NCBI RefSeq assembly: GCF_037811135.1
Contig: NZ_CP149130.1
Location: forward strand, 385,001-449,000
From: Aeromonas rivipollensis
GTDB taxonomy: Bacteria; Pseudomonadota; Gammaproteobacteria; Enterobacterales; Aeromonadaceae
Direction of reading: 5' to 3'
Length of the DNA: 64,000 bases
This document shows, in pieces, positions 9,481-27,672 of this stretch (position 1 is the first letter of the stretch; the number at the start of each line of letters is the position of its first letter). The translations under genes and the position numbers were made by a program. The notes beneath the pieces are model-generated. The model saw only the letters and a list, made by a program, of their open reading frames with translations, did no database searches and was not told the origin of the DNA.

Positions 9481-9482
9481 GG

Positions 9483-11570: not shown

Positions 11571-11736
11571 CCGGTATAAATGAAGAGCGAATTTTATGGG
11601 CTAGTCTAGGTCTAAGCAACAGCAAGGAACAACTATTGAGCGGCTTTGCCCCCCAAATACGCGACAGTTTTATGTAACAACTTGCATCAGCGGCAGAGCG
11701 TCCCGCATCCGATTCGCTTATCTCGGCAGACTTTTT

Positions 11737-11742
11737 TATAAT
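11737..11742 (+). promoter_or_regulatory. Possible -10 element of the kdsD-lpt operon
   Basis: TATAAT lies 35 bp before the kdsD start in the divergent mlaF/kdsD gap. The -35 region (about 11714-11719) is weak, so this is a tentative sigma70 promoter. Nothing else distinctive was seen in 11571-11776. Confidence 0.45.
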
Positions 11743-11776
11743 CCCGCAGCAAATTTCGGCCCGGAGCTGTGCCTTT

Positions 11777-12772: not shown

Positions 12773-13326
12773 TGCAAGACGTACCGACCCTCTATGGTCC
12801 GGTGACGCGCGGCCAGTATGAGAAGGCGGCGCAGATCCGCCTGCTGGTGTGCGATGTGGATGGGGTGCTCTCCAATGGCTTCATCTATATGGGCAATAAC
12901 GGTGAAGAGCTGAAAACCTTCTGCACCCGTGACGGTGCTGGCATGCGTGCCCTGCTCAACGCCGGCATCGAGATTGCCATCATAACGGGGCGCAATTCCC
13001 GTATCGTCAGCGATCGGATGAGGGGCCTGGGGGTGCAGCATCTGGTGCAGGGGGCGGATCAGAAGCTGCCCCACTTCGAGGCGCTGCTGGCCAAGCTGGG
13101 CCTGATGCCGGAACAGGCCGCCTACATGGGGGACGACACCATCGATCTGCCGGTGATGCAGGCCTGCGGTCTCGGCATAGCGGTGGCGGATGCTCATCCG
13201 CTGGTGCTGGCTCGTGCCGATCTGGTGACCCGTCTGGGGGGCGGAGTGGGCGCGGTGCGCGAGGTGTGCGATCTCATCCTGCAGGCGCAGGGCTTGGGCG
13301 ACTACCAACCCGAGGTCTCGGTATGA
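12772..13326 (+). CDS. kdsC: 3-deoxy-D-manno-octulosonate 8-phosphate phosphatase KdsC
   Basis: 184 residues from the ATG at 12772. A TTG directly before it would add one codon. It is a HAD-type phosphatase: motif I is CDVDGVLSNG, the Thr/Ser motif is IITGR, and the C-terminal Asp pair is MGDDTIDLP. It removes phosphate from Kdo-8-P to give Kdo. It overlaps kdsD by one base and lptC by four. Confidence 0.97.
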   Translation: MQDVPTLYGPVTRGQYEKAAQIRLLVCDVDGVLSNGFIYMGNNGEELKTFCTRDGAGMRALLNAGIEIAIITGRNSRIVSDRMRGLGVQHLVQGADQKLPHFEALLAKLGLMPEQAAYMGDDTIDLPVMQACGLGIAVADAHPLVLARADLVTRLGGGVGAVREVCDLILQAQGLGDYQPEVSV

Positions 13327-13883
13327 ACAAGCAGACGTTTCTGTTCGCCCTGCTGTTTCTGGCGGCGCTGGCCGCCTGGCAGTTTGGCGAGATCGAGCTG
13401 GCGCCCGAACCGGCTGCCAAGGTAGAGAACTATCAACCGGACTTCACCGCTAGGAATCTGGTCACGACCCGCTTCAACGAGCAGGGCAAACGAACCGAGC
13501 GGTTGGAGTCCGAATACGCGGAGTATTACCAGATCCTCGAGCAGGCCACCTTCAACAAGCCGGTGGTCTACATGTTCGATGAGCAGGGGAAGGCCGAATG
13601 GAAAGTCACGGCTGAAACCGGGGTGCTCAACACAGATGACAACGTGATACTGCGTGACAAGGTACATCTGGACGGCCTACTGCCGGCGTCTTTCATCTCC
13701 ACGCTGGATACCCCCTATCTGGAGCTGGATCTGGTGACTCAGGACATGAGAAGCAACCAGCACATCAGCATAGTGGGCCAGGAATTCCAGACCGAAGGCG
13801 TTGGCCTGAAGGGCCATCTGGAACGTAAATATTTCGAATTACTGGATAAAGGCCATGCCACTTATTTCAATGAAAAACGTTAA
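13323..13883 (+). CDS. lptC: LptC, LPS export bitopic membrane protein
   Basis: 186 residues. An N-terminal membrane anchor (QTFLFALLFLAALAAWQF) is followed by a periplasmic beta-jellyroll (DUF1239). LptC links the inner-membrane LptBFG exporter to the LptA bridge. The start overlaps the kdsC stop (ATGA). The end overlaps lptA by 29 nt. Confidence 0.95.
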   Translation: MNKQTFLFALLFLAALAAWQFGEIELAPEPAAKVENYQPDFTARNLVTTRFNEQGKRTERLESEYAEYYQILEQATFNKPVVYMFDEQGKAEWKVTAETGVLNTDDNVILRDKVHLDGLLPASFISTLDTPYLELDLVTQDMRSNQHISIVGQEFQTEGVGLKGHLERKYFELLDKGHATYFNEKR

Positions 13884-14400: not shown

Positions 14401-15126
14401 ATGGCAGTGTTAAAAGCAACGGGTTTGCAGAAGAGCTACAAGCGCCGCATGGTGGTCAGCGACGTGAGCCTGGAAGTGGGCACCGGCCAGATAGTGGGGC
14501 TGCTCGGCCCGAATGGTGCCGGCAAGACCACCTCCTTCTACATGATCGTGGGCCTGGTGCAGCGGGATGCGGGCCTCATCACCATAGATGAGCAGGACAT
14601 CAGCCTGCAGCCCATGCATATCCGCGCCCGCAATGGCATCGGCTACCTTCCCCAGGAGGCCTCCATCTTCCGGCGCCTGTCGGTGTTCGACAACCTGATG
14701 GGGGTCATGCAGACCCGCAAGGGGTTGAGCCGCGAGGAGCGTGAGGATAAGGTCGAGCAGTTGCTGGAAGAGTTCAACATCACCCATATTCGCGACAGCC
14801 TGGGTCAGAGCCTGTCTGGCGGGGAGCGGCGGCGGGTCGAGATTGCCCGTGCGCTGGCGGCAGAGCCGCGATTCATCCTGTTGGATGAACCCTTTGCAGG
14901 TGTTGATCCTATTTCGGTCATAGACATCAAGAAGATCATCCAGCATCTGAAGGAAAGAGGGCTGGGTGTGCTGATCACGGATCACAACGTCAGAGAGACG
15001 CTGGATGTGTGCGAGAAGGCCTATATCGTCAGCCACGGCAAGATGATTGCCGAGGGGGCGCCGGCCGAGATCCTCGCCGATGAGCAGGTCAAGCGCGTCT
15101 ATTTGGGCGATCAATTCAGTCTATAG
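14401..15126 (+). CDS. lptB: LptB, ATPase of the LPS exporter
   Basis: 241 residues, standard. Walker A is GPNGAGKTT, the signature is [14 protein letters not shown], Walker B is [13 protein letters not shown], and the H-loop is ITDHNV. It powers LptFG extraction of LPS from the inner membrane. A weak GGGG/CCCC hairpin with a T-run (15129-15149) follows it, which may partly insulate rpoN. Confidence 0.98.
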
Positions 15127-15191
15127 TAAGGGGGCACCCCTCATTTTTGTTAGGTGACTGCCTCGCTGAACATAAGGATATCCCGACGTAG

Positions 15192-16631
15192 ATGAAGCCG
15201 ACATTACAGTTGCGTCTCGGTCAGTCACTGACCATGACGCCACAATTACAACAAGCGATTCGTCTGCTCCAGCTCTCCACCCTGGAACTCCAGCAGGAAA
15301 TTCAGCAAGCGCTCGATAATAACCCCTTGCTGGAGCAGGAGGAGAATGAAGCGCAGGAAACCAGCCCGATAGAGCCCCAGGACGCCAGTCAACTCGACTC
15401 CAGCGACGCCATGGCGCAGGACAAGATGCCGGATGAGCTGCCTGTCGACACCACCTGGGATGAGGTCTACTCCGCCGGTACGGCCCAGAGCGCCGGCCCC
15501 ATCCATGACGGGGAAGACAGCGTCTATCAGGGAGAAACCACCGAGAACCTGCAGGACTATCTGCTGTGGCAGATGCGACTGACGCCGTTCAGCGATCTGG
15601 ATGCCGCCATCGCCCTCGCCATCATCGATGCCATCGATGAGTCCGGCTACCTGACCGCCTCTCTCGAAGATATTCAGGCTGCAGTCAGCAGTGAAGAGGT
15701 AGAAGTTGAACTGGATGAAGTGGAAGCCGTGCTCAAGCGGGTGCAGCATTTCGATCCGGTTGGCATTGCCGCGCGTTCGGTGCAGGAGTGTCTGCTGATC
15801 CAGCTTGGCCAGTACTCGCCGGATCTGCCCTGGCTCAATGAGGCAAGGGAGGTGATTCGCGACCACATGGACCTGCTCGGCAACCGTGACTACCGCACTC
15901 TGGCGCGAAAGACCCGGCTCAAGGAGAGCGACCTCAAGGAGGTGCTGGATCTCATCCAGCAGCTGGAGCCGAGACCTGGCAATGGCATCATCCAGAGTGA
16001 ATCGCAATACGTGATCCCGGACGTCTCAGTGGTCAAGAAGGGGGCAAAGTGGGTGGTTGAGCTCAACCCGGATTCGGCGCCGCGCATCCGTGTCAACGAG
16101 GCCTATGCGGCCATGGCACGCAATGCCCGCAGCAGCACTGATACCCAGTTCATTCGCTCCCATTTGCAGGAAGCCAAGTGGTTCATCAAGAGCCTGGAGA
16201 GTCGCAATGACACCCTGCTCAAGGTGGCCAGCTGCATCGTCGAGCAACAGCAGGGCTTCTTCGAATACGGGGAAGAGGCCATGAAACCCATGGTACTCAA
16301 CGACATCGCCGAGGCGGTGGAGATGCACGAGTCGACGATTTCACGGGTGACGACCCAGAAGTACATGCATACGCCCCGTGGCATCTTTGAACTGAAGTTT
16401 TTTTTCTCCAGTCATGTCAACACGGAGGGAGGAGGAGAGTGCTCATCGACCGCAATTCGCGCCCTGATCAAGAAGCTGGTGACGGCCGAAAACCCGGCCA
16501 AACCGCTTAGTGATAGCAAGATCGCGGATTTGCTGGCCGAACAGGGTATTATGGTGGCGAGACGCACGATCGCAAAGTACCGTGAATCCTTGTTGATCCC
16601 GCCATCCAATCAGCGCAAACGCCTGGTTTAG
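15192..16631 (+). CDS. rpoN: RNA polymerase sigma-54 factor RpoN
   Basis: 479 residues. The N-terminal glutamine-rich region I ([20 protein letters not shown]) contacts activators. An acidic region II and the core-binding region follow. The RpoN box [10 protein letters not shown] near the C terminus recognises the -24 element. It is directly relevant here because LafK, encoded at 47749, is a sigma54-dependent activator of the lateral flagellar genes. The rpoN-hpf-ptsN-rapZ-ptsO order is conserved in enterics. Confidence 0.98.
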
Positions 16632-17428: not shown

Positions 17429-18295
17429 ATGCAGTTAATAGTGGTAAGCGGTCGTTCGGGCTCCGGTAAGACGGTGGCCCTGAGGGTGCTGGAGGATCTG
17501 GGTTACTACTGCGTGGATAACCTGCCGGTCAACCTGCTGCCCCAGCTGATCGTCTCGGTGGAGAGCCAGTATGACAAGCTGGCGGTCAGCATAGACGTGC
17601 GCAACCTGCCGACCCAGCCAGACAAGCTGGACAACCTGCTGACCCAGGTGCGCAACGAGGGGCGGGTGGAGTTCTCCAGCTTCTTCTTCGATGCGGACAA
17701 CGGGACCCTGCTCAAGCGCTATGGCGAGAGCCGCCGGCTGCACCCCCTGTCTCGCAAACAGCTGTCGCTGGATGAGGCGATTCGGGAAGAGACTCACCTG
17801 CTGGCGCCCCTCTCCTCGACCGCCGATCTGCGCATCGATACCACCAACCTCAGCATTCACGACCTCAGCGAGCTCATCAAGACCCGGGTGCTCGGCAAGA
17901 AAGAGAACGAGCTGGTGCTGGTGTTCGAGTCGTTCGGCTTCAAATACGGCATCCCCAAGGATGCGGACTTCGTGTTCGATGCCCGTTTCCTGCCCAACCC
18001 CCACTGGATCCCGGAGCTCAAGCCCTTTACCGGTCAGGATGAGCCAGTGGCCAACTACCTCTCGGCCCAGGCGGACGTGATGCTGTTCATCCAGCAGATA
18101 GAGAACATGCTGGTGACCTGGTTGCCTCACCTGGAGCGCAACAATCGCAGCTATGTGACCGTCGGCATAGGTTGTACCGGCGGACAGCATCGTTCGGTGT
18201 TCATCGCCGAGCGGCTGGCCAGCACCTTCCGACTGCTTGGCAAGAACGTGCAGATCCGTCACCGCACGCTGGACAAGCGCTCCCCCCAAGCCTGA
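17429..18295 (+). CDS. rapZ: RNase adapter protein RapZ
   Basis: 288 residues. The N-terminal P-loop reads GRSGSGKT and the C-terminal domain contains [12 protein letters not shown]. In enterics RapZ binds GlcN6P and directs RNase E to the sRNA GlmZ, tuning glmS. Its place between ptsN and ptsO is conserved. Confidence 0.97.
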
Positions 18296-18315
18296 CAGAC
18301 CCACAGGATGTTCAG

Positions 18316-18588
18316 ATGACAGTTTCCGCCTCGGTAGAAGTCAAAAACAAGCTGGGAATCCATGCCAGACCTGCCATGATGCTGTTTGAGCTGGTGCAGG
18401 GGTTCGATGCCCATGTGCTGCTGCGCAACGAGGACGGCATCGAAGCCGATGCGGACAGCGTGATCGGCCTGCTGATGCTGGACTCCGCTCAGGGCAAGCA
18501 GGTGGAGGTGCAGGTCGAGGGCCCCGAAGAAGTGGAAGCCCTGGCCGCCGTGGTGGCGCTGTTCACCTCGGGCTTCAACGAGGAGTGA
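18316..18588 (+). CDS. ptsO: Nitrogen PTS phosphocarrier NPr
   Basis: 90 residues from the ATG at 18316. An HPr-like fold with the phospho-histidine in [10 protein letters not shown] and a conserved region around [16 protein letters not shown]. It relays phosphate from EI-Ntr (PtsP) to PtsN. It converges on the regulator gene of the accessory operon with only 18 bp between and no clear terminator. Confidence 0.96.
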
Positions 18589-18606
18589 GCAGCGCCTCCC
18601 TTGCCG

Positions 18607-20511
18607 TCATGATCCGGCGCGCGCCAGCGCCTTGAAGCCGCAAAAATCCCGACAAGCCAGCAGATTCCTGCTGGCTTTTTCGTTCATCAGCGCCAGAAAC
18701 AGATCGTAGAGCCCCATCGCCTCCTCGTAGTCCGCCTTGCTGATGGCGAGCACGAAGATGAGGGTGGCGGTCTCGCCATTGCCCCAGTCGATCCCCTGAG
18801 GGGCCAGCACTGTATAGACCAGGGTGCGGCGGGCCAGCAGGCCGAGGGAGTGGGGCAGGGCTATGCCCTCTCCCAGCAGGGTGGAGACGATGCGCTCCCG
18901 CTCTTGCAACGATCCCCTGAATCCCGGCTCCACCAGCTGCTCGGACTCCAGCTGGTCACAGATGCGGCCAAACAGCTGCGCCTGGCTGAGCGGCTCTGTG
19001 ACCACCATGAAGTGGTCCGCATCGAAGTACTTGTCCAGCAGGTAGGGGCGGGTGCGATCGATCAGCACCAGCTTGCCGAGCTGCTCCAGCTGATACTGGG
19101 TCGGGAAGGGGGTGACCTGTACCACGGGGGCGTTCTTCTCGCTCACCTTGAGGGTGCTGATGACAAAGTCCTGCTCGATGTGCGCCAGCCCCTCGTAATC
19201 CCGCACCGACTCCAGGCTGGTCAGCTGCAGCTGGGGGTATTCCCGCCGGATGCGTGCCTCCAGTACCCGGAAGGTGGCGTTGCCCGCATCGCACAGGAGC
19301 ATGGCCTGGGGGCGACGGCTGTAGCCGATGTCATAGTGGCGTTCCAGCCCGACCCCGATGTGGATCACCAGATAGCCGATCTCGTGATGGGTCAGCCGGT
19401 AGGGGGTCTGCCTTATCCACTCCGAGATGGCAGCCAGGGTGATGTCGTAGGCGAGGGGGTAGTACTGCTTGATGTGGTCCGCCAGCGGGTTGTGGCTGCC
19501 TATCTGGTATTTGACCCGCAGCAGCATGGCGCCAATGTGGGTCTGCAGGTCGGCCCGCAACTGCGGGTCGGCGCGCAGATCGTAGGGGTAGTGCTGGTGG
19601 ATGTAGGTCAGCAGATGCTCCACCAGTTGCTCGCTCTCGGCGGCCATGGCCGGGCTGAGCTGGGGGGTATCGGCAGTGAGCCTGGCCTGGATCTGGATGG
19701 CGAGGCAGGCGATCTCCTCCTCCCCTGGCGGGGTCAGGGTCGGCAGCTCGGCATAGATGTCGCGGGCCACCGCGGCCAGGGTCTGGGTGATGTCGTCGCT
19801 GGCGAACTGGCGCAGCTCGTGGCCTGCCGCCTGACGCAGCAGGGCGACGGCGCAGTAGATGGCGAGCTGTTGCAGGCTCTCGTCGGCGAGGCGCAGCTGA
19901 TGGCGGCCGAGCTGATCGTGAATGTGGTTGCCCACGACCTCCAGGGTCTTGCTGGGGCAGAGGGTGGGCAGCAGGCTCTGCAACGGGTGGTTGTTCAGCA
20001 GCTCCTGGCACAGCAGCTGGGTCAGGCAGGCACGGATCGCCGTCTCGCTCCCCTGGATACGCATGCCCAGCCGTGGCTTGCTCTCTATGGTGAGCCCGAA
20101 GTGGGCGAGCCGCTCCCTCACCTGTGCCATGTCTCCCTGCAGGGCCGCCCGGCTCAGATACCAGGTATCTGCCAGCTCGTCGAGCTTGATCCCCTGCTCC
20201 GCCGTCAGCAGCAGGATCTGCAGATGCAGCACCCGCTCGCGACTGGTGCGCGGCAGGCTGCTCTCCTGCTCCTGTGCCGCCAGCAGCGCATCAAAAAGCC
20301 CCTGATTGTAAATCTTGAGTTGATAGCCGGTGCCGCGCTGGTGGATCAGGTGGGCGCCCTGGGTGGCGATCAACTCGTTGAGGGTCGCCACGTCGGTGCG
20401 CACCGTGCGGGTGGAGACATTGAGGCGACGGGCCAGCTCCTCCTGGGGCAGCGGCTCGGCATGGAGCTGGGTCAGCAGTTGATGGAGCCTGGGGTGGGGC
20501 AGCTTGATCAT
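18607..20511 (-). CDS. BglG/MtlR-type transcriptional regulator with PRD, EIIB-like and EIIA domains
   Basis: 634 residues from MIKLPHPRL. Domains in order: an HTH (about 1-65, EELARRLNVSTRTVRTDVATLN), a second winged-helix-like region, two PRDs (about 165-380), an EIIB-Gat-like domain with Cys407 in LLCDAGNAT, and an EIIA-Fru/Ntr domain with His554 in GIALPHS. This is the layout of DNA-binding PTS-controlled activators such as MtlR/ManR/LicR, not of RNA-binding BglG. It is the last gene of the accessory operon and its likely regulator, with activity set by PTS phosphorylation. The start is uncertain by a few codons because the GGAG site lies rather far upstream. Confidence 0.88.
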   Translation of the reverse strand: MIKLPHPRLHQLLTQLHAEPLPQEELARRLNVSTRTVRTDVATLNELIATQGAHLIHQRGTGYQLKIYNQGLFDALLAAQEQESSLPRTSRERVLHLQILLLTAEQGIKLDELADTWYLSRAALQGDMAQVRERLAHFGLTIESKPRLGMRIQGSETAIRACLTQLLCQELLNNHPLQSLLPTLCPSKTLEVVGNHIHDQLGRHQLRLADESLQQLAIYCAVALLRQAAGHELRQFASDDITQTLAAVARDIYAELPTLTPPGEEEIACLAIQIQARLTADTPQLSPAMAAESEQLVEHLLTYIHQHYPYDLRADPQLRADLQTHIGAMLLRVKYQIGSHNPLADHIKQYYPLAYDITLAAISEWIRQTPYRLTHHEIGYLVIHIGVGLERHYDIGYSRRPQAMLLCDAGNATFRVLEARIRREYPQLQLTSLESVRDYEGLAHIEQDFVISTLKVSEKNAPVVQVTPFPTQYQLEQLGKLVLIDRTRPYLLDKYFDADHFMVVTEPLSQAQLFGRICDQLESEQLVEPGFRGSLQERERIVSTLLGEGIALPHSLGLLARRTLVYTVLAPQGIDWGNGETATLIFVLAISKADYEEAMGLYDLFLALMNEKASRNLLACRDFCGFKALARAGS

Positions 20512-20617
20512 GGGGTGAGGCAAGACTCCTGTTGCGAAATAAAGGGTCGATGTTAACAAGGTGATCATCAACAAGCCAGACACCGGCCAGTGATCGGACC
20601 GGTGCCTGCGGGTGCCG

Positions 20618-21358
20618 TTATGCCAGCAGCGTTTTGACCGTGGCGAGCAGGGTGCGCACATCCTCGGGGCGGGTCTGGCCGCTCTCGCTGTCGATGATGG
20701 AACTGTAGATGTGGGGGATCACCTTCTCGACCCCGGCCTCCAGCGCGATGCGGACTATCTCCTCGAAGTTGTCGAGATCGATGCCGCCGGTGGGTTCCAG
20801 CCAGAAGCCGTGACGGGCGCAGGCCTCGGCCACCGCCTGATACTCGTCGCGGCAGGCCAGGCCTCCCATGGGGAAGAACTTGACCGAGCTGCCGCCCATG
20901 TCCTTCAGCAGGGCGATGGCGGTATCGATGGGCACAATCCCATCCGGCTGCTGGGCACTGAGGGGGCCGGTGGAGATCTTCACCATGCCGGGGGTGCCGG
21001 TGGGGGAGACGAGGCCGTTGACCAGGCTGTGAGGCTGACCCAGCAGCGCCCGGCTGGGGCCCACTCCGGTGAATACCTGGTTGACGTGCTGGGGCTGCAG
21101 CTGGCGAGCCAGCTCGGCCACCATGGCGGACTGGCGGGGATCCCCCGCCCCCAGACCGATGGAGAGGGCGTTGTCGATAAGCTTGGCATACTCCCGCATG
21201 TCGGCGACGGCGGAGGGCACATCCGGGTAGTTCTTGGAGAGCACGCCGACCAGTACATGGCCCTCGGCCGCCTCATAGATGTCGACGGCATTCTGTCTGG
21301 ACCCTGCCAGCACGTTGAGACAGACACGATCACGGTAGTAGTTGGGAACAAGGGACAT
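20618..21358 (-). CDS. KDGP aldolase family protein (2-dehydro-3-deoxy-phosphogluconate aldolase type)
   Basis: 246 residues. The segment SVKFFPMGGL resembles the Schiff-base lysine motif of Eda-type aldolases, and WLEPTGGIDLDNF is a phosphate-binding-type segment. It is homologous in role to DgaF of the Salmonella D-glucosaminate pathway, cleaving KDGP to pyruvate and glyceraldehyde 3-phosphate. I recall this family as EF_0839/AHA_3917. A GGAGG site lies 7 nt before the ATG. The first 25 codons recur in a truncated copy immediately upstream (21375-21467). Confidence 0.88.
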   Translation of the reverse strand: MSLVPNYYRDRVCLNVLAGSRQNAVDIYEAAEGHVLVGVLSKNYPDVPSAVADMREYAKLIDNALSIGLGAGDPRQSAMVAELARQLQPQHVNQVFTGVGPSRALLGQPHSLVNGLVSPTGTPGMVKISTGPLSAQQPDGIVPIDTAIALLKDMGGSSVKFFPMGGLACRDEYQAVAEACARHGFWLEPTGGIDLDNFEEIVRIALEAGVEKVIPHIYSSIIDSESGQTRPEDVRTLLATVKTLLA

Positions 21359-21374
21359 CAGCGATCCTCCTTAA

Positions 21375-21467
21375 TTAGATATGGTCTTGGACGACGGCAT
21401 GCTGCCGGGATCCCGCTAGTACATTGAGGCAGACACGATCGCGGTAGTAATTAGGGGTAAGAGACAT
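21375..21467 (-). pseudogene. Truncated duplicate of the KDGP aldolase 5' end (30-codon ORF)
   Basis: The ORF begins MSLTPNYYRDRVCLNVLAGS, identical to the aldolase N terminus except Thr for Val at position 4 and His for Asn at 23 over 25 residues. It then diverges and stops after 30 codons. Its ATG overlaps the stop of the upstream lyase gene (TGATG), and AGGAG precedes it, so it is likely translated. The two copies differ at 11 codons synonymously but only two non-synonymously. It could be a remnant of a partial tandem duplication, recombination with a diverged allele, or a retained coupling/leader peptide. Confidence 0.85.
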
Positions 21468-22582
21468 CAGTTGTTCTCCTGAACGAGGTTGGCAATGGCG
21501 GCATGGATCTGGTCGAGCTGGGGGATGGTGACGCTGCGCACGTCGATCTCGATGTGCCCCTCGTTGGCCTTGTAGCCGCGGCAGTAGATGGCCGGATTGC
21601 CCTGCTGCAGGCGGGCCACCAGTTGCACCGTCGTCATGCCGATCTGAGCGTGGTCGAAGGCGATGTCGGTGCGGGCGATGTCGCGCCCGGCGCTGTCCCA
21701 CACCACCCGGGCGGTGACGCCGGGCAGCTGGTTGAGGCGCTCGATGAAGGACGCCATCTTGGCGGCCATGGCGGCGCCGCTCTCCTGCTCTTTCTCCAGG
21801 TAGCGCTCGATGGCGTGGGTCAGGCCGAGGATCCCCTCCTTGCCCACCTTCATGGCGCGCCCTATGCCGTTGGCCTGCTGCTTGACCCACTCCACATACT
21901 GGCGCTTGCCGAGCACCAGGCCGCTGGTGGGCCCCTCGATGGCCTTGGCGCCGCTGTAGATGACGAGATCCGCCCCTTGCTGGTAATAGAGACGCAGATC
22001 CTCTTCCGCCGCCGCATCGACGATGAGCGGCAGCCCGTGGGCCCTGGCCACCTCGGCCGCCTCGGAGACTGACAGAATGCTCTTCTGCACGCAGTGGTGG
22101 GACTTGATGTAGAGGATGGCGGCGGTATCGGGGTTGATGGCGGCAGCCAGCTGGGCGGGGGAGCATTCGTTGGCATAGCCAGCTTCCACCACCTTGCCGC
22201 CCCCCAGGTTGACCATGGTGCCGACCGGCGCGCCGAAGTTCACGTTGTGACCCTTGGGCAGCACTATCTCGCTCGGCACCCCGTGGGCATGGGCATGCAA
22301 CTGCTCGAGGCGGTAGGGATCGCCGCGCACTATGACGGCGGCCACCGACTGGGCTATGCCGGCACTAGCGCAGGAGACCACCACGGCGTCTTCCGCGCCG
22401 AGCAGATTGGCCAGGTAGGCACCTGTCTTGTTGACCAGGTCTTTGACCTCGAAGTAGTGGCCCAGGCCGAAGTTGACCGCGTCGACCACCTCCTGCTCCG
22501 GGGTGGAGACGCCGAGGATGGTCATGCGCCCTGAGGCGTTGATCACGGGTTTGAGCTGATATTTCTCATACACGGAAGGCAT
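21467..22582 (-). CDS. DgaE-family PLP-dependent ammonia lyase
   Basis: 371 residues from the Met of MPSVYEKYQLKPVINASGRM, the usual family start. GTG 22618 and ATG 22597 are in-frame alternatives. It has the SelA-like aminotransferase fold with the PLP lysine in YSGAKAIEGPTSG. By analogy with Salmonella DgaE it would eliminate ammonia from a 2-amino-2-deoxy-gluconate 6-phosphate to give KDGP, the aldolase substrate. It overlaps the upstream amidohydrolase gene by 17 nt. Confidence 0.87.
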   Translation of the reverse strand: MPSVYEKYQLKPVINASGRMTILGVSTPEQEVVDAVNFGLGHYFEVKDLVNKTGAYLANLLGAEDAVVVSCASAGIAQSVAAVIVRGDPYRLEQLHAHAHGVPSEIVLPKGHNVNFGAPVGTMVNLGGGKVVEAGYANECSPAQLAAAINPDTAAILYIKSHHCVQKSILSVSEAAEVARAHGLPLIVDAAAEEDLRLYYQQGADLVIYSGAKAIEGPTSGLVLGKRQYVEWVKQQANGIGRAMKVGKEGILGLTHAIERYLEKEQESGAAMAAKMASFIERLNQLPGVTARVVWDSAGRDIARTDIAFDHAQIGMTTVQLVARLQQGNPAIYCRGYKANEGHIEIDVRSVTIPQLDQIHAAIANLVQENN

Positions 22583-23705
22583 GGTGGGATTGTCCATATT
22601 GAGTGAGAACCAGGTCACCGCCCATCAGGGCGGCGAGGGGGCGCAGTTGCCGGTCGCCGTGGCGGGACCCGGCTTCGGTATCGGTAAAGAGCGTCGGGCC
22701 GCTCATGACCTCGAACAGGGTCAGATCGGCATCGGTGCCCACCTCGAGTCGTCCCTTGCCGGGCAGACGCAGGGCATCGGCGGCCTGGCTGGTGACGCAG
22801 GCGATCACCTGCTCCAGGGTCATGCCGATGGCGAGAAACTTTGACATCACGTGGGCCAGGCTGTAGACGGGGCCCTTGATGCGGTTCTTGCAGTAGATGT
22901 CCGAGCTGATGGTGTGAGGCAATATCCCTTGCCGGATGGCGGCCTCTGCCACCTCGAAGCTGAAGCTGGCACCACCGTGGCCGATGTCGAGGCGCAGGCC
23001 CCGTTGCATCGCCTCGCGCACCCCCTGGCGCAGTTCGCCCGCCGGGGTCAGGATGCGGTTGGGCTTGCCGTTGAAGCAGTGGGTCAGCAGATCCCCTTCC
23101 CCCAGCAGGGCGACTATCTCGTCGAGATCCGGTGGCGTGTTGCCTACGTGCACCATCAGCGGCAGCTGGCCGTTGTCCTGCTGGATCTGCTTGGCCACGC
23201 GCAGCGGCTGCAGGCCGTTCTCGCCCACCACGCTGCCGCTCATCCGCGCCTTGATGCCGACGATGAAGGAGGGATGACGACGAATGGCCGCCCGGGCGAG
23301 AGCGGGATCTATGTCGGCGGGGTTGGCCAGCTCGTTCTGGCGCAGCAGACCGATGCGGGAGATGTTGAGCAGGGCATGGACCCGGGTCTTGCAGCCAGCG
23401 GCGAGGCGCTGGAAGTCGTCCACGTCGTCAGCCCCGGTGCTGCCCGCATCGATGACAGTGGTGACACCGGACTCTACGCCCACCTTGTCCGGCTCATCCT
23501 GATAGATGGGAGAGGCGGGGTAGCAGTGGGTGTGGCCGTCAATCCAGCCGGCGCTCACATGAACCTGTCCGGCCAGAGTGAGGGTTCGCTTCGCCTCGGT
23601 GGTCTCTGGCAGCGCGCCCAGCGCCGCTATCTTGCCGTCCTGGATGGCGATATCGATGAGCTGGCCATTTCCCTGGCGTCCCGCTCTGATGATGATGTCG
23701 TACAT
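22566..23705 (-). CDS. Amidohydrolase/deacetylase-family metal-dependent hydrolase
   Basis: 379 residues, full-length amidohydrolase superfamily. The metal ligands are visible in order: the HxH motif DGHTHCY, a probable carboxylated lysine in GIKARMSG, His in MVHVGN, His in LTHCFNG and Asp in TISSDIY. That is a binuclear dihydroorotase-like centre. In this operon it plausibly deacylates an N-acylated amino-sugar acid before the lyase. I recall this family as EF_0837/AHA_3915, substrate undetermined. AGAGG precedes the ATG. Confidence 0.87.
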   Translation of the reverse strand: MYDIIIRAGRQGNGQLIDIAIQDGKIAALGALPETTEAKRTLTLAGQVHVSAGWIDGHTHCYPASPIYQDEPDKVGVESGVTTVIDAGSTGADDVDDFQRLAAGCKTRVHALLNISRIGLLRQNELANPADIDPALARAAIRRHPSFIVGIKARMSGSVVGENGLQPLRVAKQIQQDNGQLPLMVHVGNTPPDLDEIVALLGEGDLLTHCFNGKPNRILTPAGELRQGVREAMQRGLRLDIGHGGASFSFEVAEAAIRQGILPHTISSDIYCKNRIKGPVYSLAHVMSKFLAIGMTLEQVIACVTSQAADALRLPGKGRLEVGTDADLTLFEVMSGPTLFTDTEAGSRHGDRQLRPLAALMGGDLVLTQYGQSHHAFRV

Positions 23706-23723
23706 GCTGATGGCCTCTAGAGT

Positions 23724-23741
23724 GCCGCCCCGAAGGGCGGC
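23724..23741 (-). other. Intercistronic hairpin with UUCG tetraloop
   Basis: On the minus strand a 7-bp all-GC stem GCCGCCC / GGGCGGC closes a TTCG loop in a C(UUCG)G context, an extra-stable RNA hairpin. It lies between the amidohydrolase and DUF4310 genes. There is no T-run, so it is not a classic terminator. It may act in mRNA stability or processing between the transport and catabolic halves. Confidence 0.75.
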
Positions 23742-23747
23742 GGAAGG

Positions 23748-24398
23748 TTATGCAAGCGCAACCGGGAAGAAGGTACCGAGCAGCATTGCACCCAGGATGG
23801 CGCCGCCTGTGATGGGCTTCTCCCAGATGTAAAACAGCAGCGCTCCCGCCAGGGAACCCAGCCCTATGGGGATGGAGGCCCCCATGGCGGAGAGGATGAT
23901 CAGGGGGCCGAGGAAGCGGCCCGAGCTGTTGCCAGCCCCCATCATCACATCCGCCCCGTAGGTGGAGTTGCTCTGGTTGATGGTGAACTTGCGCGCCAGG
24001 ATGATCACGTAGCCGATGGCCAGGCCTATGGCCATGCCGGTGACCAGGGAGGCGCCGAAGTTCTCCACCGGGTAGACGATGCCGGCACCCAGCAGCAGGG
24101 CGGGAACCCCCAGGCCGACGCCGGTCTGGATGGCGCCGCCTATGTCCAGGATCCCCACCAGGGAGCCCTCTATGATGCGGGCAAACAGGAAGCTGGCACC
24201 GAAGGCTGCGACTGCGCCGTAGGCACCTGTGTCCATTCCGGCTTTCAGCATGGCGACGAAGGCCACCTCGTTGAAGGCGCCGACCCCGTACAGGTAGAAC
24301 ATGTGGGTCCCGGCAAAGACCCCGGCCGACAGCAGACCGACGAAGATGGGGAAGGACCAGTCGGCGTACCAGAAGTTGTTTCTCAGTTTCTCATCCAT
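23748..24398 (-). CDS. DUF4310-family membrane protein
   Basis: 216 residues with multiple hydrophobic segments: about 20-40, 85-110, 120-150, and two near the C terminus. It is glycine and alanine rich, as in transport proteins. I recognise it as the DUF4310 family (EF_0833/AHA_3914 by memory). Together with DUF4311 it forms the membrane half of an uncharacterised conserved cluster, in the place where Dga-type operons have PTS EIIC/EIID. No phosphorylation motif was seen. AGGGA precedes the ATG. Confidence 0.85.
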   Translation of the reverse strand: MDEKLRNNFWYADWSFPIFVGLLSAGVFAGTHMFYLYGVGAFNEVAFVAMLKAGMDTGAYGAVAAFGASFLFARIIEGSLVGILDIGGAIQTGVGLGVPALLLGAGIVYPVENFGASLVTGMAIGLAIGYVIILARKFTINQSNSTYGADVMMGAGNSSGRFLGPLIILSAMGASIPIGLGSLAGALLFYIWEKPITGGAILGAMLLGTFFPVALA

Positions 24399-24409
24399 GT
24401 GGTGGTCCC

Positions 24410-25186
24410 TTATTTACTGCCAAGCAGGTGATGGACGTTTTCCAGCCACAGGGGAATGCCCAGGTGGAAGGACTCAATCAGTTTCATATCGAAGCCGCGG
24501 AAGAAGCCGCTCAGCACGAACAGCAGCACTATTGCGCTCATCATCACCCTGGTGACGTGGTTCCAGCCGCTCTCTTCCACGCCCTTGCCGATCAGGATGC
24601 CAAGCACCAGGCCCGGCACGGCGTTGCCCATGATGAGCTGCGCCAGACCGCCGAAGATGGTGGCCCAAAAGCCGGACTTCTTGCCCGCCTCTATGGCGGC
24701 CAGCCAGAAGATCACCGGCATGACGGTGTTGACCAGCAGGTTGGCGGCTGGCACCAGCACCTTGACCGCAGTGACCTGCAGGGCCTCGGGCACGGCCGCC
24801 GCCGTGCTGTTGAGGAAGGCGACGACGATGGCACCTATGATGCCGCCGGCGATGGCCATCTTCTTCGGGTCGTGCAGGGTAGTGGCGAGATCCCGGTTCT
24901 TGAACAGCAGCGCGGCCGTGGCCCAGTGCGGGATGATGCGGTGATCCACGTCCTGGGTGAAGGCACCTGCCGCGACCGTGGAGGCCCAGGCGTTGAAGAA
25001 GAAGCCAAGCCCGAACGAGAAGTGGGAGGCGGGATCCCCTTCGCAGGAGTTGAGCTCACCCAGGGTACGGAAGGCACCCATGCCCTGTACTGTCGGGGCG
25101 TGGAACATCCGCGCCGCACCGGCTCCCACGCCGACGCCCACCAGGCCGCCGATGATGAGTGACTTCATCAAAATGATTAGAAACAT
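24410..25186 (-). CDS. DUF4311-family membrane protein
   Basis: 258 residues from MFLIILMKSLIIGG, chosen because AAAGGA lies about 10 nt upstream. ATG 25168 is an alternative. There are several membrane segments, including an N-terminal Gly-rich helix (IIGGLVGVGVGAGA) and helices near GGIIGAIVVAFL, VPGLVLGILIG and IVLLFVLSGFF. DUF4311 family (EF_0832/AHA_3913 by memory). Presumed partner of DUF4310 in a two-component permease. Function not established. Confidence 0.85.
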   Translation of the reverse strand: MFLIILMKSLIIGGLVGVGVGAGAARMFHAPTVQGMGAFRTLGELNSCEGDPASHFSFGLGFFFNAWASTVAAGAFTQDVDHRIIPHWATAALLFKNRDLATTLHDPKKMAIAGGIIGAIVVAFLNSTAAAVPEALQVTAVKVLVPAANLLVNTVMPVIFWLAAIEAGKKSGFWATIFGGLAQLIMGNAVPGLVLGILIGKGVEESGWNHVTRVMMSAIVLLFVLSGFFRGFDMKLIESFHLGIPLWLENVHHLLGSK

Positions 25187-25211
25187 CCAACATGTCCTTT
25201 TGGTTGTGGGG

Positions 25212-25508
25212 TTACACCCTGGTGAAATCCACCTTGTCGACATCCAGGCTGCTGACCTTGACCCTGATCTCCAGCTGGACCCTGAACTCGCGGCGCTGGC
25301 GCGGCAGGAAGAAGAACAGGAACTTCTCCACCCGCACCGACTCCTCGGCCTTGAGCACCCGGACCTCGAGCGGCTCGATCCGCAGCATCACCCTGGGGTT
25401 GTCCTTGAGCAGGCTGGATTGCACCTGGCCGAGGGCGGCGGCAAACGCCTGCTGGCGGGTCGCCCCCTTGCCGTTGACCATGACCTGGGTGGTGAAGTCC
25501 TCTTTCAT
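25212..25508 (-). CDS. DUF4312-family protein
   Basis: 98 residues, soluble, predicted alpha/beta with a long C-terminal strand pair (REFRVQLEIRVKVSSLDVDKV). DUF4312 family (EF_0831/AHA_3912 by memory). The start ATG overlaps the stop of the preceding SFCGS gene (ATGA), showing tight coupling. It has no histidine and no cysteine, so it cannot be a conventional PTS phosphocarrier. Confidence 0.83.
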   Translation of the reverse strand: MKEDFTTQVMVNGKGATRQQAFAAALGQVQSSLLKDNPRVMLRIEPLEVRVLKAEESVRVEKFLFFFLPRQRREFRVQLEIRVKVSSLDVDKVDFTRV

Positions 25509-25873
25509 CAGGCGCGCCCGTGTTTCTTGGCGAAGGCTTCGACCAGCTTCTGACCCAGCTCTTCCTTGTCCATGAAGCCGAAGCCCAGCACCACGCAGCC
25601 TTCGTTGATGGCGGTGATGCCCTCCTCGACGGAGCGCATGCCGTAGCGGCACTTGTAGCCGTATTTGGTCTGGGCCGTGATGGCGCCGGCGCCGCCGCTG
25701 CCGCAGAAGGAGATGCCGAGATCCGCCTGCTCCTTGTTCATCACATCACCGAGTTTCATGTCGGCGGCCATGCCGGGGATGACGGTCACTGTGGCGCCGG
25801 CGGCTTCTGCCCCGGCTCCTACCTTCTGACCCTTGCCGAGGCGATCTCCAATCACGAGTTTGATGGCTGACAT
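25508..25873 (-). CDS. SFCGS-family glycine-rich protein
   Basis: 121 residues, soluble. The family hallmark SFCGSGGAGAIT is present at about residues 55-66, a cysteine followed by a glycine-rich loop reminiscent of, but not placed like, PTS EIIB P-loops. Other conserved-looking blocks are VIGDRLGKGQKVGAGAEAAG and YGMRSVEEGI. I recall it as EF_0830/AHA_3911. Possible roles are a Cys-phosphorylated carrier or a ligand-binding subunit of the DUF4310/4311 permease. Neither has been shown. Confidence 0.85.
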   Translation of the reverse strand: MSAIKLVIGDRLGKGQKVGAGAEAAGATVTVIPGMAADMKLGDVMNKEQADLGISFCGSGGAGAITAQTKYGYKCRYGMRSVEEGITAINEGCVVLGFGFMDKEELGQKLVEAFAKKHGRA

Positions 25874-26236
25874 TTAGATTTCTCCTTTGACTGAGCTGAG
25901 TTCATTTTCTTTGGCAACTTCGAAATGGACGGACAAGAGGTGGGCCTCTTCATAGGCCAGCCTGTCCAGCCAGCCGACCACCTGTTCGGCGAGGCGCAGG
26001 GAGAGGGGGGAGATCTCCTCGAACAGGCTGAGGTCGACCTCGGGCAGGGCTTCACCGCTGTGGGAGCGCCACACCATGGCCTTGACGTGGGAGGCGAGCA
26101 TCTGTTTCTGCACCTCGTTGGGGATGATGCCCTGATCCGCCAGCAGGCCGTGGATGCGCGCCAGAGTGAGATCTGTCTTGCGCAGCAACGCCGGGCTGTT
26201 CGGGGTCAGGGCGGTGTCGTGAGTGTCGGTAGTCAA
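25874..26236 (-). CDS. Stand-alone PRD-domain protein
   Basis: 120 residues consisting of one PTS regulation domain without HTH or RNA-binding domain. Candidate phosphorylatable histidines occur in LASHVKAMVWR and LLSVHFEVAKEN. The start codon is TTG with GGAGA about 9 nt upstream. It is the first gene of the operon and abuts the SFCGS gene with no gap. I recall it as EF_0829/AHA_3910. It may modulate the full-length regulator encoded last in the operon. Confidence 0.82.
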   Translation of the reverse strand: MTTDTHDTALTPNSPALLRKTDLTLARIHGLLADQGIIPNEVQKQMLASHVKAMVWRSHSGEALPEVDLSLFEEISPLSLRLAEQVVGWLDRLAYEEAHLLSVHFEVAKENELSSVKGEI

Positions 26237-26418
26237 GGTCTGCTCTCCAAGGCTGGCAGAAAGGATGGGATTACCTTAAAACGGGGAAGAGAGCGGGAGG
26301 AGGCACCGTTTTTCCGATTCGAAATGGAAATTCCGGGGAAAAAGCCCCGAAAGAGGCCGGATTTGTGGCGACAAGGGGGAAAGGGAGGGGATTGACCCCG
26401 GTGCTGTGTGAGCGGGAC

Positions 26419-26466
26419 CACAGTTTCACCCCGCAGCCGCCCGATCGTGCGCGGGTGGAAACTGTG
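26419..26466 (-). promoter_or_regulatory. Imperfect inverted repeat, candidate operator of the accessory operon
   Basis: Arms CACAGTTTCACCCCGC (26419-26434) and GCGGGTGGAAACTGTG (26451-26466) are inverted repeats with two mismatches over 16 bp. Their centres are 32 bp apart, about three helical turns. They lie about 190-230 bp upstream of the first gene. A dimeric PRD-type activator such as the one encoded in this operon is a reasonable ligand. The intervening region 26237-26418 holds no gene, and I could not fix a -10 element. Confidence 0.55.
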
Positions 26467-26478
26467 AGTCATCTCACG
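26463..26478 (-). promoter_or_regulatory. CRP binding site upstream of the accessory operon
   Basis: TGTGAgtcatcTCACG matches the CRP consensus half-sites TGTGA-N6-TCACA at 9 of 10 positions. It overlaps the right arm of the inverted repeat. This implies catabolite control of the operon, consistent with a carbon-source pathway. Confidence 0.65.
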
Positions 26479-26510
26479 CCAGGGAAGGGGGGTCTGAGAG
26501 GGAGGCACGA

Positions 26511-26533
26511 AAAAGGGGCCCTGATGGCCCCTC
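26511..26533 (-). terminator. degS intrinsic terminator
   Basis: On the minus strand the stem AGGGGCC / GGCCCCT is followed by a T-run. It lies 18 nt after the degS stop and separates degS from the accessory operon promoter region. Confidence 0.85.
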
Positions 26534-26550
26534 TATTGGTTCCCTTGCCG

Positions 26551-27672
26551 TCAGCTGGCGGGGACTGCGCTGCTGGTGGGCAGATTCTGGTAGCGCACGT
26601 CTTCCTCTATGATGACGTCGACGTCCAGGGGCTTGCCATTGCGGATCACCGAGATGGTCAGCTTGGTACCGGGGCGGCTCTCGACGATCTTGTCCATCAC
26701 GGGGCGTACGCCGCTGATGGCCTCGCCGTTGATCTTGAGCAACACATCCCCGCGCCTGAGGCCGGCCTTGGTGGCGGGGCCGTCGGGATCCAGGCTCTCC
26801 ACCACCAGACCCTGCAGCTCACCGAGATTCATCATGCGCGCGACTATGGGGTTGATCTCGACGCTGGAGATGCCGAGGTAGCCACGAATGACACGGCCAT
26901 TGGCGATCAGCTCGTCCATGATCCGCTTGGCCAGCTTGTAGGGGATGGCGAAGCTGATGCCGTAGCTCTCCTGATTGCCGTTGAGGTGGTAGGCGGCGGT
27001 GTTGATGCCCACCAGATCGCCACGGCCATTGACCAGGGCGCCACCCGAGTTGCCCTCGTTGATGGCGGCATCGGTCTGCAGCAGATCCTGCCGGCCGTTG
27101 CTGTCGGGCCCCATGCTGGAGAGACCGATGCGACCGGTGGCACTGATGATGCCCTGGGTGATGGTCTGGCCGACGTTGTAGGGGTTGCCGATGGCGAGCA
27201 CCACATCGCCCACGTCCGGCAGCCGCTCCGGATCCTGAGGTATCACCGGCAGGTTGTCCGACTCTATGTAGAGCACGGCGAGATCGGTCAGCTTGTCGGT
27301 GCCGACCAGCTCGGCGCTGAATACCCGGCCATCCTGCAGCGCGACTATGATCTGGTCCGCATCGGCGATGACGTGGTAGTTGGTCAGCACATGACCGCGC
27401 TGGTTCATGATGACCCCTGAGCCCAGCCCCTGTGGCCTCAGCTCTGCCTTCTCGCCGCGATTGCCGGCGAAACTGCGGGTATAGATGTTGACGACGGCAG
27501 GACCGGCGCGGTGGGCGGCATAGGAGAAACTCAGCTCGCGGGCATTGGTGATGAGGCCCGGCAGGGGGGCGCCGCCCCGAAAACTGGGGAACAGCAGCAA
27601 CAGGAGCGCAGCCACGGTGAGGCCAAAGCCGACAGACTTGCCCAAGTAACTGATCAAAGGTGGGATTTTCAT
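26551..27672 (-). CDS. degS: DegS, inner-membrane site-1 serine protease of the sigma-E pathway
   Basis: 373 residues. An N-terminal membrane anchor (about 12-30) is followed by a trypsin-like protease with the triad in LTNYHVI (His), LTDLAVL (Asp) and NEGNSGGAL (Ser), then one PDZ domain. It cleaves RseA after its PDZ senses unfolded outer-membrane proteins. It lies downstream of degQ on the same strand, with its own leader of about 90 bp. Confidence 0.95.
   Translation of the reverse strand: MKIPPLISYLGKSVGFGLTVAALLLLLFPSFRGGAPLPGLITNARELSFSYAAHRAGPAVVNIYTRSFAGNRGEKAELRPQGLGSGVIMNQRGHVLTNYHVIADADQIIVALQDGRVFSAELVGTDKLTDLAVLYIESDNLPVIPQDPERLPDVGDVVLAIGNPYNVGQTITQGIISATGRIGLSSMGPDSNGRQDLLQTDAAINEGNSGGALVNGRGDLVGINTAAYHLNGNQESYGISFAIPYKLAKRIMDELIANGRVIRGYLGISSVEINPIVARMMNLGELQGLVVESLDPDGPATKAGLRRGDVLLKINGEAISGVRPVMDKIVESRPGTKLTISVIRNGKPLDVDVIIEEDVRYQNLPTSSAVPAS

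Follow-up and report, generated by a model that had tools for sequence, protein, structure and literature searches.

A conserved nine-gene operon of Aeromonas with a candidate permease module and enzymes of probable amino-sugar-acid breakdown

A nine-gene operon and its proposed role

The window analysed here, a stretch of 64,000 nucleotides (nt) of Aeromonas rivipollensis DNA (contig NZ_CP149130.1), contains on its minus strand, running from 26236 to 18607, nine open reading frames (ORFs) in the order PRD, SFCGS, DUF4312, DUF4311, DUF4310, amidohydrolase, lyase, aldolase and regulator, just as the initial annotation had described. We propose that this operon imports an N-acylated 2-amino-2-deoxy-aldonate by way of a DUF4311/DUF4310 permease module, phosphorylates it through the phosphotransferase system (PTS) and degrades it. 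Judged from sequence, the proposal as a whole has an even chance of being correct; we consider the pathway to be largely right in outline and the transporter reading to be plausible.

The substrate would be a compound such as an N-acetyl-hexosaminate, which in some cases would enter in lactone form, and would be imported by DUF4311 and DUF4310, as the two pieces of a permease, together with SFCGS, DUF4312 and the stand-alone PRD protein, while the PTS chain of Enzyme I and HPr would phosphorylate it at C6. The amidohydrolase would next remove the acyl group, the DgaE-type lyase would eliminate ammonia to give 2-keto-3-deoxy-gluconate-6-phosphate (KDGP), and the aldolase would split this into pyruvate and glyceraldehyde-3-phosphate. 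The regulator, with its PRD, EIIB-like and EIIA parts, would sense PTS phosphorylation and act at a single palindromic operator, CRP providing a further input. The genes are as follows, with scores and curated cut-offs in bits:

25874..26236, minus strand: stand-alone PRD protein, EF_0829 family, TTG start (TIGR03582, 142.8/69.35)
25508..25873, minus strand: SFCGS protein, glycine-rich, RpiB/YhfU-like (TIGR03577, 221.9/141.1)
25212..25508, minus strand: DUF4312 protein (TIGR03578, 139.7/89.65)
24410..25186, minus strand: DUF4311 membrane protein, candidate permease half (TIGR03580, 495.8/301.1)
23748..24398, minus strand: DUF4310 membrane protein, candidate permease half (TIGR03579, 402/215.45)
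22566..23705, minus strand: amidohydrolase/deacetylase, EF_0837 family (TIGR03583, 573.4/432.15)
21467..22582, minus strand: DgaE-family ammonia lyase dependent on pyridoxal phosphate (PLP) (TIGR01437, 608.4/385.3)
20618..21358, minus strand: KDGP aldolase, DgaF type (TIGR03581, 398.7/222.4; NF047796, 387.2/300)
18607..20511, minus strand: BglG/MtlR-type regulator, HTH_11-Mga-PRD-EIIB-like Cys-EIIA_2 (Pfam)

Eight of the nine proteins pass an NCBIfam cut-off, including all seven of the models TIGR03577-TIGR03583; the exception is the regulator, which passes none in NCBIfam and was judged by the Pfam cut-offs, passed for HTH_11, Mga, PRD and PTS_EIIA_2. DUF4311 starts at 25186. The lyase probably starts at 22582 (its ORF opens at 22618), and the regulator at residue 51 of its ORF (20511; the ORF opens at 20661), because six homologues measure 634-645 amino acids (aa). 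The window's genome is a single contig of 4.55 Mb, and Aeromonas rivipollensis G78 has a DUF4311 with 100% identity to the window's.

Seven of the nine families, all with cut-offs passed, bear names taken from the EF_0829-EF_0839/AHA_3910-3917 cluster, which has thus already been recognised as a conserved set; its functions are there given as 'hypothetical', save that the amidohydrolase is assigned an enzyme class and the PRD protein is called 'PRD domain protein'. What is new relative to that catalogued set is the palindrome, the HPr-Enzyme I link, the resemblance to YhfT, YhfU and YhfY, and the junction with ptsO, all described below.

Distribution and conservation of gene order

Scanning GTDB genomes with DUF4311 revealed at least 499 relatives, the best 80 of which were taken as loci (L031-L110), so that the sample is biased towards close relatives. 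The eight core genes are in identical order in 77 of the 80, with all core matches on one strand; DUF4312 was not detected in L081 and L098, and L084 differs only in the sort order of overlapping ORFs. The regulator follows the core in 71 loci, precedes it in seven and lies off the fetched DNA in two. A lactonase gene (PF10282, 6-phosphogluconolactonase-like) is present in 17 of the 80 loci and in the Klebsiella locus L030. From the PRD gene to the last core or regulator gene there is no unassigned ORF of at least 110 aa in 79 of the 80 loci, and within the operon none of the 80 has a kinase-sized or other transporter-sized ORF on the operon strand. The exception, L102 of Yersinia aldovae, has an opposite-strand ORF of 452 aa between aldolase and regulator (14669-16024, minus strand). 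Some loci have possibly broken genes: the lyase is in two pieces in L098 of Providencia stuartii (12525-13676), the undetected DUF4312 of L081 of Pantoea brenneri would lie around 9117-9974, and the regulator is in two pieces in L054, L069 and L072.

Besides Aeromonas, the operon occurs in Enterococcus, Klebsiella and Bartonella, and the gene-neighbourhood survey of Aeromonas and Enterococcus that had been suggested earlier met the cluster in both, the E. faecalis version carrying extra genes. DUF4311 matches are present in 28 of 37 genus genomes, which bears out the prediction of an accessory cluster, and in 12 of 398 phylum genomes (the window's genome included in each count). No further alphaproteobacterial cases were found among 397 genomes in the order of G055, which we take to be Rhizobiales, or in the one genome in the class of G001. 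Neither a tblastn search of viral contigs nor a blastn search of E. coli genomes with window positions 23748-26236 gave a match. Of two weak DUF4311 matches (L014, L015), L014 was set aside, as it looks like DjlA.

Enzymes and probable substrate

The final enzymatic steps invite comparison with the Salmonella Dga system, in which, in the sections of the reports used here, DgaABCD PTS uptake stands upstream of the DgaE lyase and DgaF aldolase (PMC9529869) and the regulator is PTS-type (PMC3844500). A DgaE-family lyase, a DgaF-type aldolase and a PTS-type regulator are common to both. The operon described here differs in that no Man-family EII genes were seen, no member of the membrane pair has a Man-family Pfam match (28 DUF4311 and 33 DUF4310 members), an amidohydrolase is added, a lactonase accompanies some loci, the lyase is in a different branch, and there is no sigma-54 activator domain among the Pfam matches of the window's regulator.

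We aligned the lyase over 14-375 with the Salmonella enzyme DGL (7lc0/7lce), mapped the site residues by counting along the alignment, and compared 85 lyase and amidohydrolase sequences, near-identical ones among them. In the portion of the DGL report consulted, Arg301, Arg332 and Arg346 lie at the substrate phosphate and His163 is the proton donor (PMC9529869). The counterparts of the three arginines are Arg in 85/85, which supports a 6-phosphorylated substrate, and that of His163 is His in all 85. The position of His162 is His in 83 and Ala in two (one of them from a Bartonella locus), while the PLP lysine, which counts as 213 in the chain versus 217 in the paper's text, is Lys throughout. 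The aldolase exceeds the cut-off of the DgaF equivalog NF047796, and its solved relatives are 3m0z and 3lm7.

In the amidohydrolase, HxH, Lys, His, His and Asp, presumably the metal ligands, are kept in all 85 sequences, and this apparently intact site agrees with the earlier suggestion that an added amidohydrolase points to an N-acylated substrate. Its solved relatives are 8wzy (deposited as 'dihydroorotase') and 2ics (deposited as 'adenine deaminase'); going by the title of Ornelas 2013, the amidohydrolase group cog3964 reportedly contains misannotated dihydroorotases. The presence of a lactonase in 17 of the 80 loci fits a sugar-acid lactone as substrate. From these residues and families, the substrate of the pathway is probably an N-acyl-2-amino-2-deoxyaldonate 6-phosphate. 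In the parts of the literature covered, EF0838 and EF0839 are named without a tested function (PMC7701990, PMC2912369, PMC7396535), and an E. faecalis gene pair is called dgaE and dgaF (PMC7396535). A literature search on N-acetylglucosaminate terms gave nothing relevant.

The membrane module and its link to the PTS

DUF4311 has five hydrophobic segments and invariant His28, His54, His81 and His251, and DUF4310 has six hydrophobic segments and one invariant histidine; the membrane-protein character of the pair agrees with the possible transporter that had been suggested. The stand-alone PRD protein keeps His50 and His104 in 85/85 sequences, E. faecalis included, although an invariant histidine alone fails to single it out, as both membrane proteins have one too. 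SFCGS has Cys57 in 83/83, again including E. faecalis (two sequences of unusual length were excluded), and no conserved histidine. DUF4312 is fast-evolving (mean column identity 56% in 32 sequences), has no His or Cys column at 70% or above, and did no better than chance against protein families, the PDB and the E. coli EII proteins; its matches to recA (E 3.6e-6, 24 columns) and haemoglobin, both without a passing stretch, look like chance and were discarded. The idea that four proteins of unknown function occupy the place of a Man-family PTS thus stands insofar as no Man-family EII was seen, although the four differ in kind, SFCGS being RpiB/YhfU-like and DUF4312 quickly diverging. DUF4311 also matches DUF2232 weakly in 28/28 members (best 5e-4), over 85 residues in the window's protein. 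A literature search returned nothing on DUF4310, nothing relevant on SFCGS, DUF4311, DUF4312 or EF_0830, and DUF2620 in a gene list only.

Between Aeromonas and E. faecalis, identities are 69% for SFCGS, 69% for DUF4311 and 72% for DUF4310, above the 46% of the amidohydrolase and 54% of the lyase, which fits one obligate complex; the PRD protein (33%), DUF4312 (41%) and the regulator (19%) diverge further, and the aldolase was left out because it is split over two ORFs in that record. The values for Bartonella are 78%, 73% and 74% for the same trio, 56% for the amidohydrolase, 57% for the lyase and 67% for the aldolase. That the trio is among the best conserved parts of the operon suggests a tightly constrained machine.

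A tie to the PTS is seen in two near-identical Bartonella plasmids, where the whole operon is followed directly by a 671-aa fusion of HPr (residues 9-86) and full Enzyme I, with the active-site motifs kept in both parts (HARP in HPr, GGATSHVAI in Enzyme I). A PTS for sugars is usually absent from Bartonella and other alphaproteobacteria, and an operon that has its own HPr-Enzyme I fusion is thereby tied to one. These plasmids provide the only genetic link to Enzyme I and HPr among the loci. The regulator likewise has PTS-type residues: counted in 80 homologues that are 560 aa or longer, the PRD residues His375 and His434 are present in 80/80, the EIIA residue His604 in 79/80 and the EIIB-type Cys457 in 72/80. 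We note that on the Bartonella plasmid of L028 a type VI secretion gene, tssA (10781-12201), lies close to the operon.

A more specific version of the transporter reading, which the same residues allow but which we think rather improbable, is that the module forms a new class of PTS permease, with the PRD protein (by its histidines) as EIIA, SFCGS (by Cys57) as EIIB and DUF4311/DUF4310 as EIIC, and with YhfY, YhfU and YhfT of E. coli as a second branch. SFCGS matches no EIIB family in Pfam, and single EIIBs fall within the control range against its profile; the EIIA protein UlaC scores 20.5 over 21 columns, equalled by 2/148 controls. Alone of eight single EII proteins, AgaC tops all 27 controls against the DUF4310 profile (22.0 versus a maximum of 19.2), over 25 columns and with a probability of 2.3.

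Probable kinship with the E. coli yhf operon and resemblance to RpiB

In E. coli, the DUF2620 protein is YhfU, encoded beside YhfT, and the same operon encodes a PRD protein, YhfY. We compared profiles with hhalign, using 40 column shuffles of each as the null, and used hidden Markov models (HMMs) to rank 16,727 ORFs taken from the window and the loci; since conserved membrane families from the loci numbered only three, 27 E. coli membrane proteins were added to the single-sequence controls. The PRD protein is solidly homologous to YhfY by these comparisons: the alignment scores 50.1 against a shuffle maximum of 16.5 (probability 95.1, reached by 0/40 shuffles), and the YhfY HMM places PRD proteins at all of ranks 1-50 (best E 4.7e-6), with the first regulator at rank 75. 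Homology of SFCGS to YhfU is likely, from a full-length alignment scoring 25.9 against a shuffle maximum of 20.4, with a probability of only 25.7, and from a YhfU HMM with SFCGS proteins at all of ranks 1-59, these being mutually related and hence non-independent matches (best E 0.016). A single YhfU against the SFCGS profile is equalled by 7/148 controls, and six RpiB sequences by 2 to 19.

For the membrane proteins the evidence is suggestive of kinship between DUF4310 and the C-terminal half of YhfT, where the profiles align with a score of 41.1 against a shuffle maximum of 26.2 (probability 68.1, 0/40 shuffles). A single DUF4310 beats 27/27 E. coli membrane controls against the YhfT profile, whereas with the DUF4310 profile 12/27 score as high as YhfT; the PTS proteins MtlA, AscF and AgaD likewise outscore the controls when set against YhfT, in alignments of 24-33 columns, and ranking the ORFs by the YhfT profile singled out neither DUF4310 nor DUF4311. 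A kinship of DUF4311 with YhfT, seen by eye in a motif FH...E...FGL, was dropped, as hhalign gave no support in free or global mode; neither DUF4311 nor DUF4312 has a match among the yhf profiles, and plasmid searches with YhfT or the E. faecalis DUF4310 yielded no intermediate family.

SFCGS also resembles RpiB/LacAB, the two aligning, as YhfU does more weakly, around a cysteine loop (CG[T/S]G or CNTG), and differs in falling below all curated cut-offs, in lacking any conserved histidine and in ending ahead of the C-terminal GGRH tail. When 25 members were scanned singly, RpiB-type models matched 22-24 of them, with a best E of 3.9e-5 and all below cut-offs; other weak matches were DUF1685 in 13 (best 8.9e-4), PKS_KR_start in 11, TrbL in eight, DUF5325 in seven, DUF2620 in six and Cas_Csx9 in three. 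The window's SFCGS scores 14.9 bits against Pfam LacAB_rpiB, below the gathering score of 24.7. With hhalign, SFCGS and RpiB score 24.1 against a shuffle maximum of 19.7 over 21 columns, and YhfU and RpiB 19.8, reached by 1/40 shuffles. A PDB profile search with SFCGS gave nothing up to E 1; with YhfU, four of five matches are RpiB, weakly (E 0.45-0.91), and the best is an aminopeptidase (E 0.39).

The likeness extends to arrangement. A stand-alone PRD protein, a small RpiB-like cysteine protein and a membrane protein are shared with E. coli yhfSTUVWXYZ, and in a Cetobacterium plasmid, where the order is YhfZ, PRD, DUF2620, YhfT and then an amidase, the succession of PRD, small protein and membrane protein is that of the operon described here. 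The E. coli operon differs in having one YhfT rather than two membrane proteins, no DUF4312 that we could find, a phosphotriesterase homologue, a mutase and two PLP proteins, and YhfZ rather than a BglG/MtlR-type regulator. In the portion of a study of L. rhamnosus that we drew on, a PRD protein, a DUF2620 protein and a membrane protein bear consecutive accessions, with a PRD activator and a sigma-54 factor close by in the numbering (PMC7513527), and would on that account form one operon. A literature search for the function of yhfT, yhfU, yhfS and yhfX found nothing. From these resemblances, the module and YhfT, YhfU and YhfY may represent one unstudied class of permease.

Weighing of the proposal

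Several findings weigh against the proposed import, phosphorylation and breakdown of an N-acylated aldonate. The Bartonella linkage is a single event, and its HPr-Enzyme I could serve the regulator alone. The E. faecalis regulator is the one that lacks the EIIA histidine, and the E. faecalis version includes a sugar kinase as well as a PTS EIIC of its own. No Pfam PTS family matches DUF4310, DUF4311, DUF4312 or SFCGS, the matches of single E. coli EII proteins to the module profiles are all short, and the weak AlphaFold models of the membrane subunits (predicted local distance difference test scores 60.5 and 68.4) match no solved fold significantly. Nor is strong conservation confined to the module: between Aeromonas and Klebsiella the aldolase is 77% identical and SFCGS 76%. 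In the lyase, the position of Arg226, at the carboxylate, is occupied by Lys in 60 of 85 sequences and by Arg in the other 25, and the score of 395.7 bits falls short of the 600-bit cut-off of the D-glucosaminate-6-phosphate lyase equivalog NF047797, so that glucosaminate itself is not indicated. The expectation of Dga-like final steps therefore holds for the aldolase and the phosphate-binding arginines, and has to be qualified for the lyase, which forms a separate branch.

The additions in E. faecalis (L027, 10620-13355 and 16325-17335) are a lactose/cellobiose-family EIIC, a PfkB-type kinase resembling 2-keto-3-deoxy-gluconate (KDG) kinases, a MupG-type protein and a hydrophobic protein of 99 aa for which Pfam gives no match. 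The aldolase of this locus is in two ORFs at 15570-16316, where no CDS is listed, and the record itself (NZ_CP143580.1) is a 747-kb 'plasmid' with ribosomal protein L25 and other chromosomal-looking genes, which may be a mislabelled chromosome piece. The earlier statement that no kinase is encoded applies within the operon to the window and the 80 loci, but not to the E. faecalis version. As no kinase-sized ORF lies on the operon strand inside the operon in the 80 loci, the 6-phosphate must come from elsewhere.

It might come from an unlinked kinase, with DUF4310 and DUF4311 acting as an ordinary non-PTS importer and the PTS acting on the regulator and PRD protein only. This account, which we find doubtful although it merits serious attention, draws on the dissimilarity of the pair to any Pfam PTS membrane family, on the linked PfkB-type kinase of E. 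faecalis and on the PTS-type residues of the regulator, which suffice to explain the Bartonella fusion; against it, no kinase-sized operon-strand ORF lies within any of the 80 operons, PRD and SFCGS accompany the membrane pair in these loci, and YhfT of Cetobacterium is also preceded by a PRD protein and a small cysteine protein.

We think it unlikely that the lyase and aldolase act instead on another 2-amino-3-hydroxy acid phosphate and the amidohydrolase on an unrelated acyl or ring substrate. The sub-threshold lyase score, the MupG-type (cell-wall sugar) protein in the E. faecalis context and the deposited names of the amidohydrolase relatives lean that way, but the aldolase passes its DgaF equivalog, the phosphate arginines are present in all 85 lyases compared and 17 of the 80 loci add a lactonase. 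More improbable still is that the five proteins from PRD to DUF4310 are a membrane enzyme or sensor complex, with import by another carrier such as the E. faecalis EIIC: that EIIC and MupG do stand beside the module in L027, SFCGS does resemble sugar-phosphate isomerases and its conservation is, in our judgement, unusually high for a permease, but no other transporter-sized operon-strand ORF is found inside the operon in the 80 loci, SFCGS has no conserved histidine and stops short of the GGRH tail of RpiB, and an aldonate offers an RpiB-type enzyme nothing to isomerise.

Putative operator and upstream signals

Three signals lie between the operon and degS or upstream of PRD:

26311..26330, minus strand: 20-bp palindrome TTTCC-N10-GGAAA, putative operator, upstream of PRD
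26463..26478, minus strand: CRP-like site CGTGAGATGACTCACA, one mismatch to TGTGA-N6-TCACA
26514..26532, strand unassigned: terminator-like hairpin between degS and the operon, listed on the plus strand, with its T-run read on the minus strand

A copy of the palindrome precedes PRD by no more than 300 nt in the window and in 82 of 84 loci, Bartonella (L028, L029) included; two of the upstream regions (L028, L084) were shorter than 300 nt. Within that distance it is missing in L027 of E. faecalis and in L065, which has one 884 nt upstream. In the 1.62 Mb of L031-L110 there are only three N10 matches elsewhere, all 470-890 nt upstream of PRD. A stricter pattern, TTTCCRYTTNNNNNYGGAAA, matches the window's 4.55-Mb genome once, at 26311-26330, which argues for a one-operon regulator, and its reversed control has zero matches in 37 genus genomes. 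Of these 37 genomes, 27 have the strict pattern: G427, where operon fragments are all that is left, and all those with DUF4311 except G428 and G433 (26 of 28). We infer that the regulator binds the palindrome. A second strict match is present in three Aeromonas genomes (G410:C216:5484, G419:C37:8956 and G423:C73:15709; L205, L194 and L207), possibly a second target of the regulator.

CRP-like sites with at most one mismatch are found in 25 of 83 upstream regions and in 3 of 400 random locus windows, an easy control because those windows are mostly coding; the sites fit a carbon source. No sigma-70-like promoter was found, and Rfam gave nothing at gathering score in 18000-27000.

Chromosomal site and history

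In the window the regulator (18607-20511) converges with its neighbour:

18316..18588: ptsO (NPr), convergent with the regulator

The same convergent junction, with the regulator's end 7-141 nt from ptsO, is present in 29 of 84 loci from five genera: 17 of 18 Aeromonas, together with Hafnia, nine Rahnella, Edaphovirga and Sodalis (the non-Aeromonas loci being L056, L057, L058, L062, L063, L066, L074, L076, L096, L103, L104 and L107). Of the 17 ptsO-adjoining Aeromonas loci, 16 have degS on the fetched DNA; it was not found there in any of the 12 from other genera.

Nine genus genomes have no DUF4311 match. In six of them ptsO stands immediately next to degS, and the other three (G416, G411, G427) have broken regulator pieces; these remnant loci (L142, L146, L147) lie beside ptsO, and L146, in G427, also has a PRD piece. 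The G411 piece lies near a contig end and the G427 genome is 80% complete. The operon is thus decaying in some Aeromonas. It had been argued that the cluster interrupts a core block between ptsO and degS and is probably accessory; the six intact junctions agree with this, but the remnants in three genomes and the ptsO junction in five genera point to an old locus with losses. In a FastTree phylogeny of eight proteins, the ptsO-adjoining loci are in separate clades, deep ones (Aeromonas, Hafnia) included, a scatter consistent with an ancient position next to ptsN-rapZ-ptsO, from which the operon later moved or was lost; alternatively, it may have inserted several times at the same place beside ptsO. 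The site beside the PTS-Ntr cluster looks either ancestral or preferred.

Significance

Seven of the nine families are catalogued as a conserved set without an assigned function, and E. coli K-12 has a further orphan in its yhf operon. If the two share a permease class, a single assay of transport and phosphorylation in a laboratory strain could account for the pair and possibly extend the PTS by a class. It would also provide candidate substrates for the structures 8wzy, 2ics, 3m0z and 3lm7, which are deposited under generic or doubtful enzyme names.

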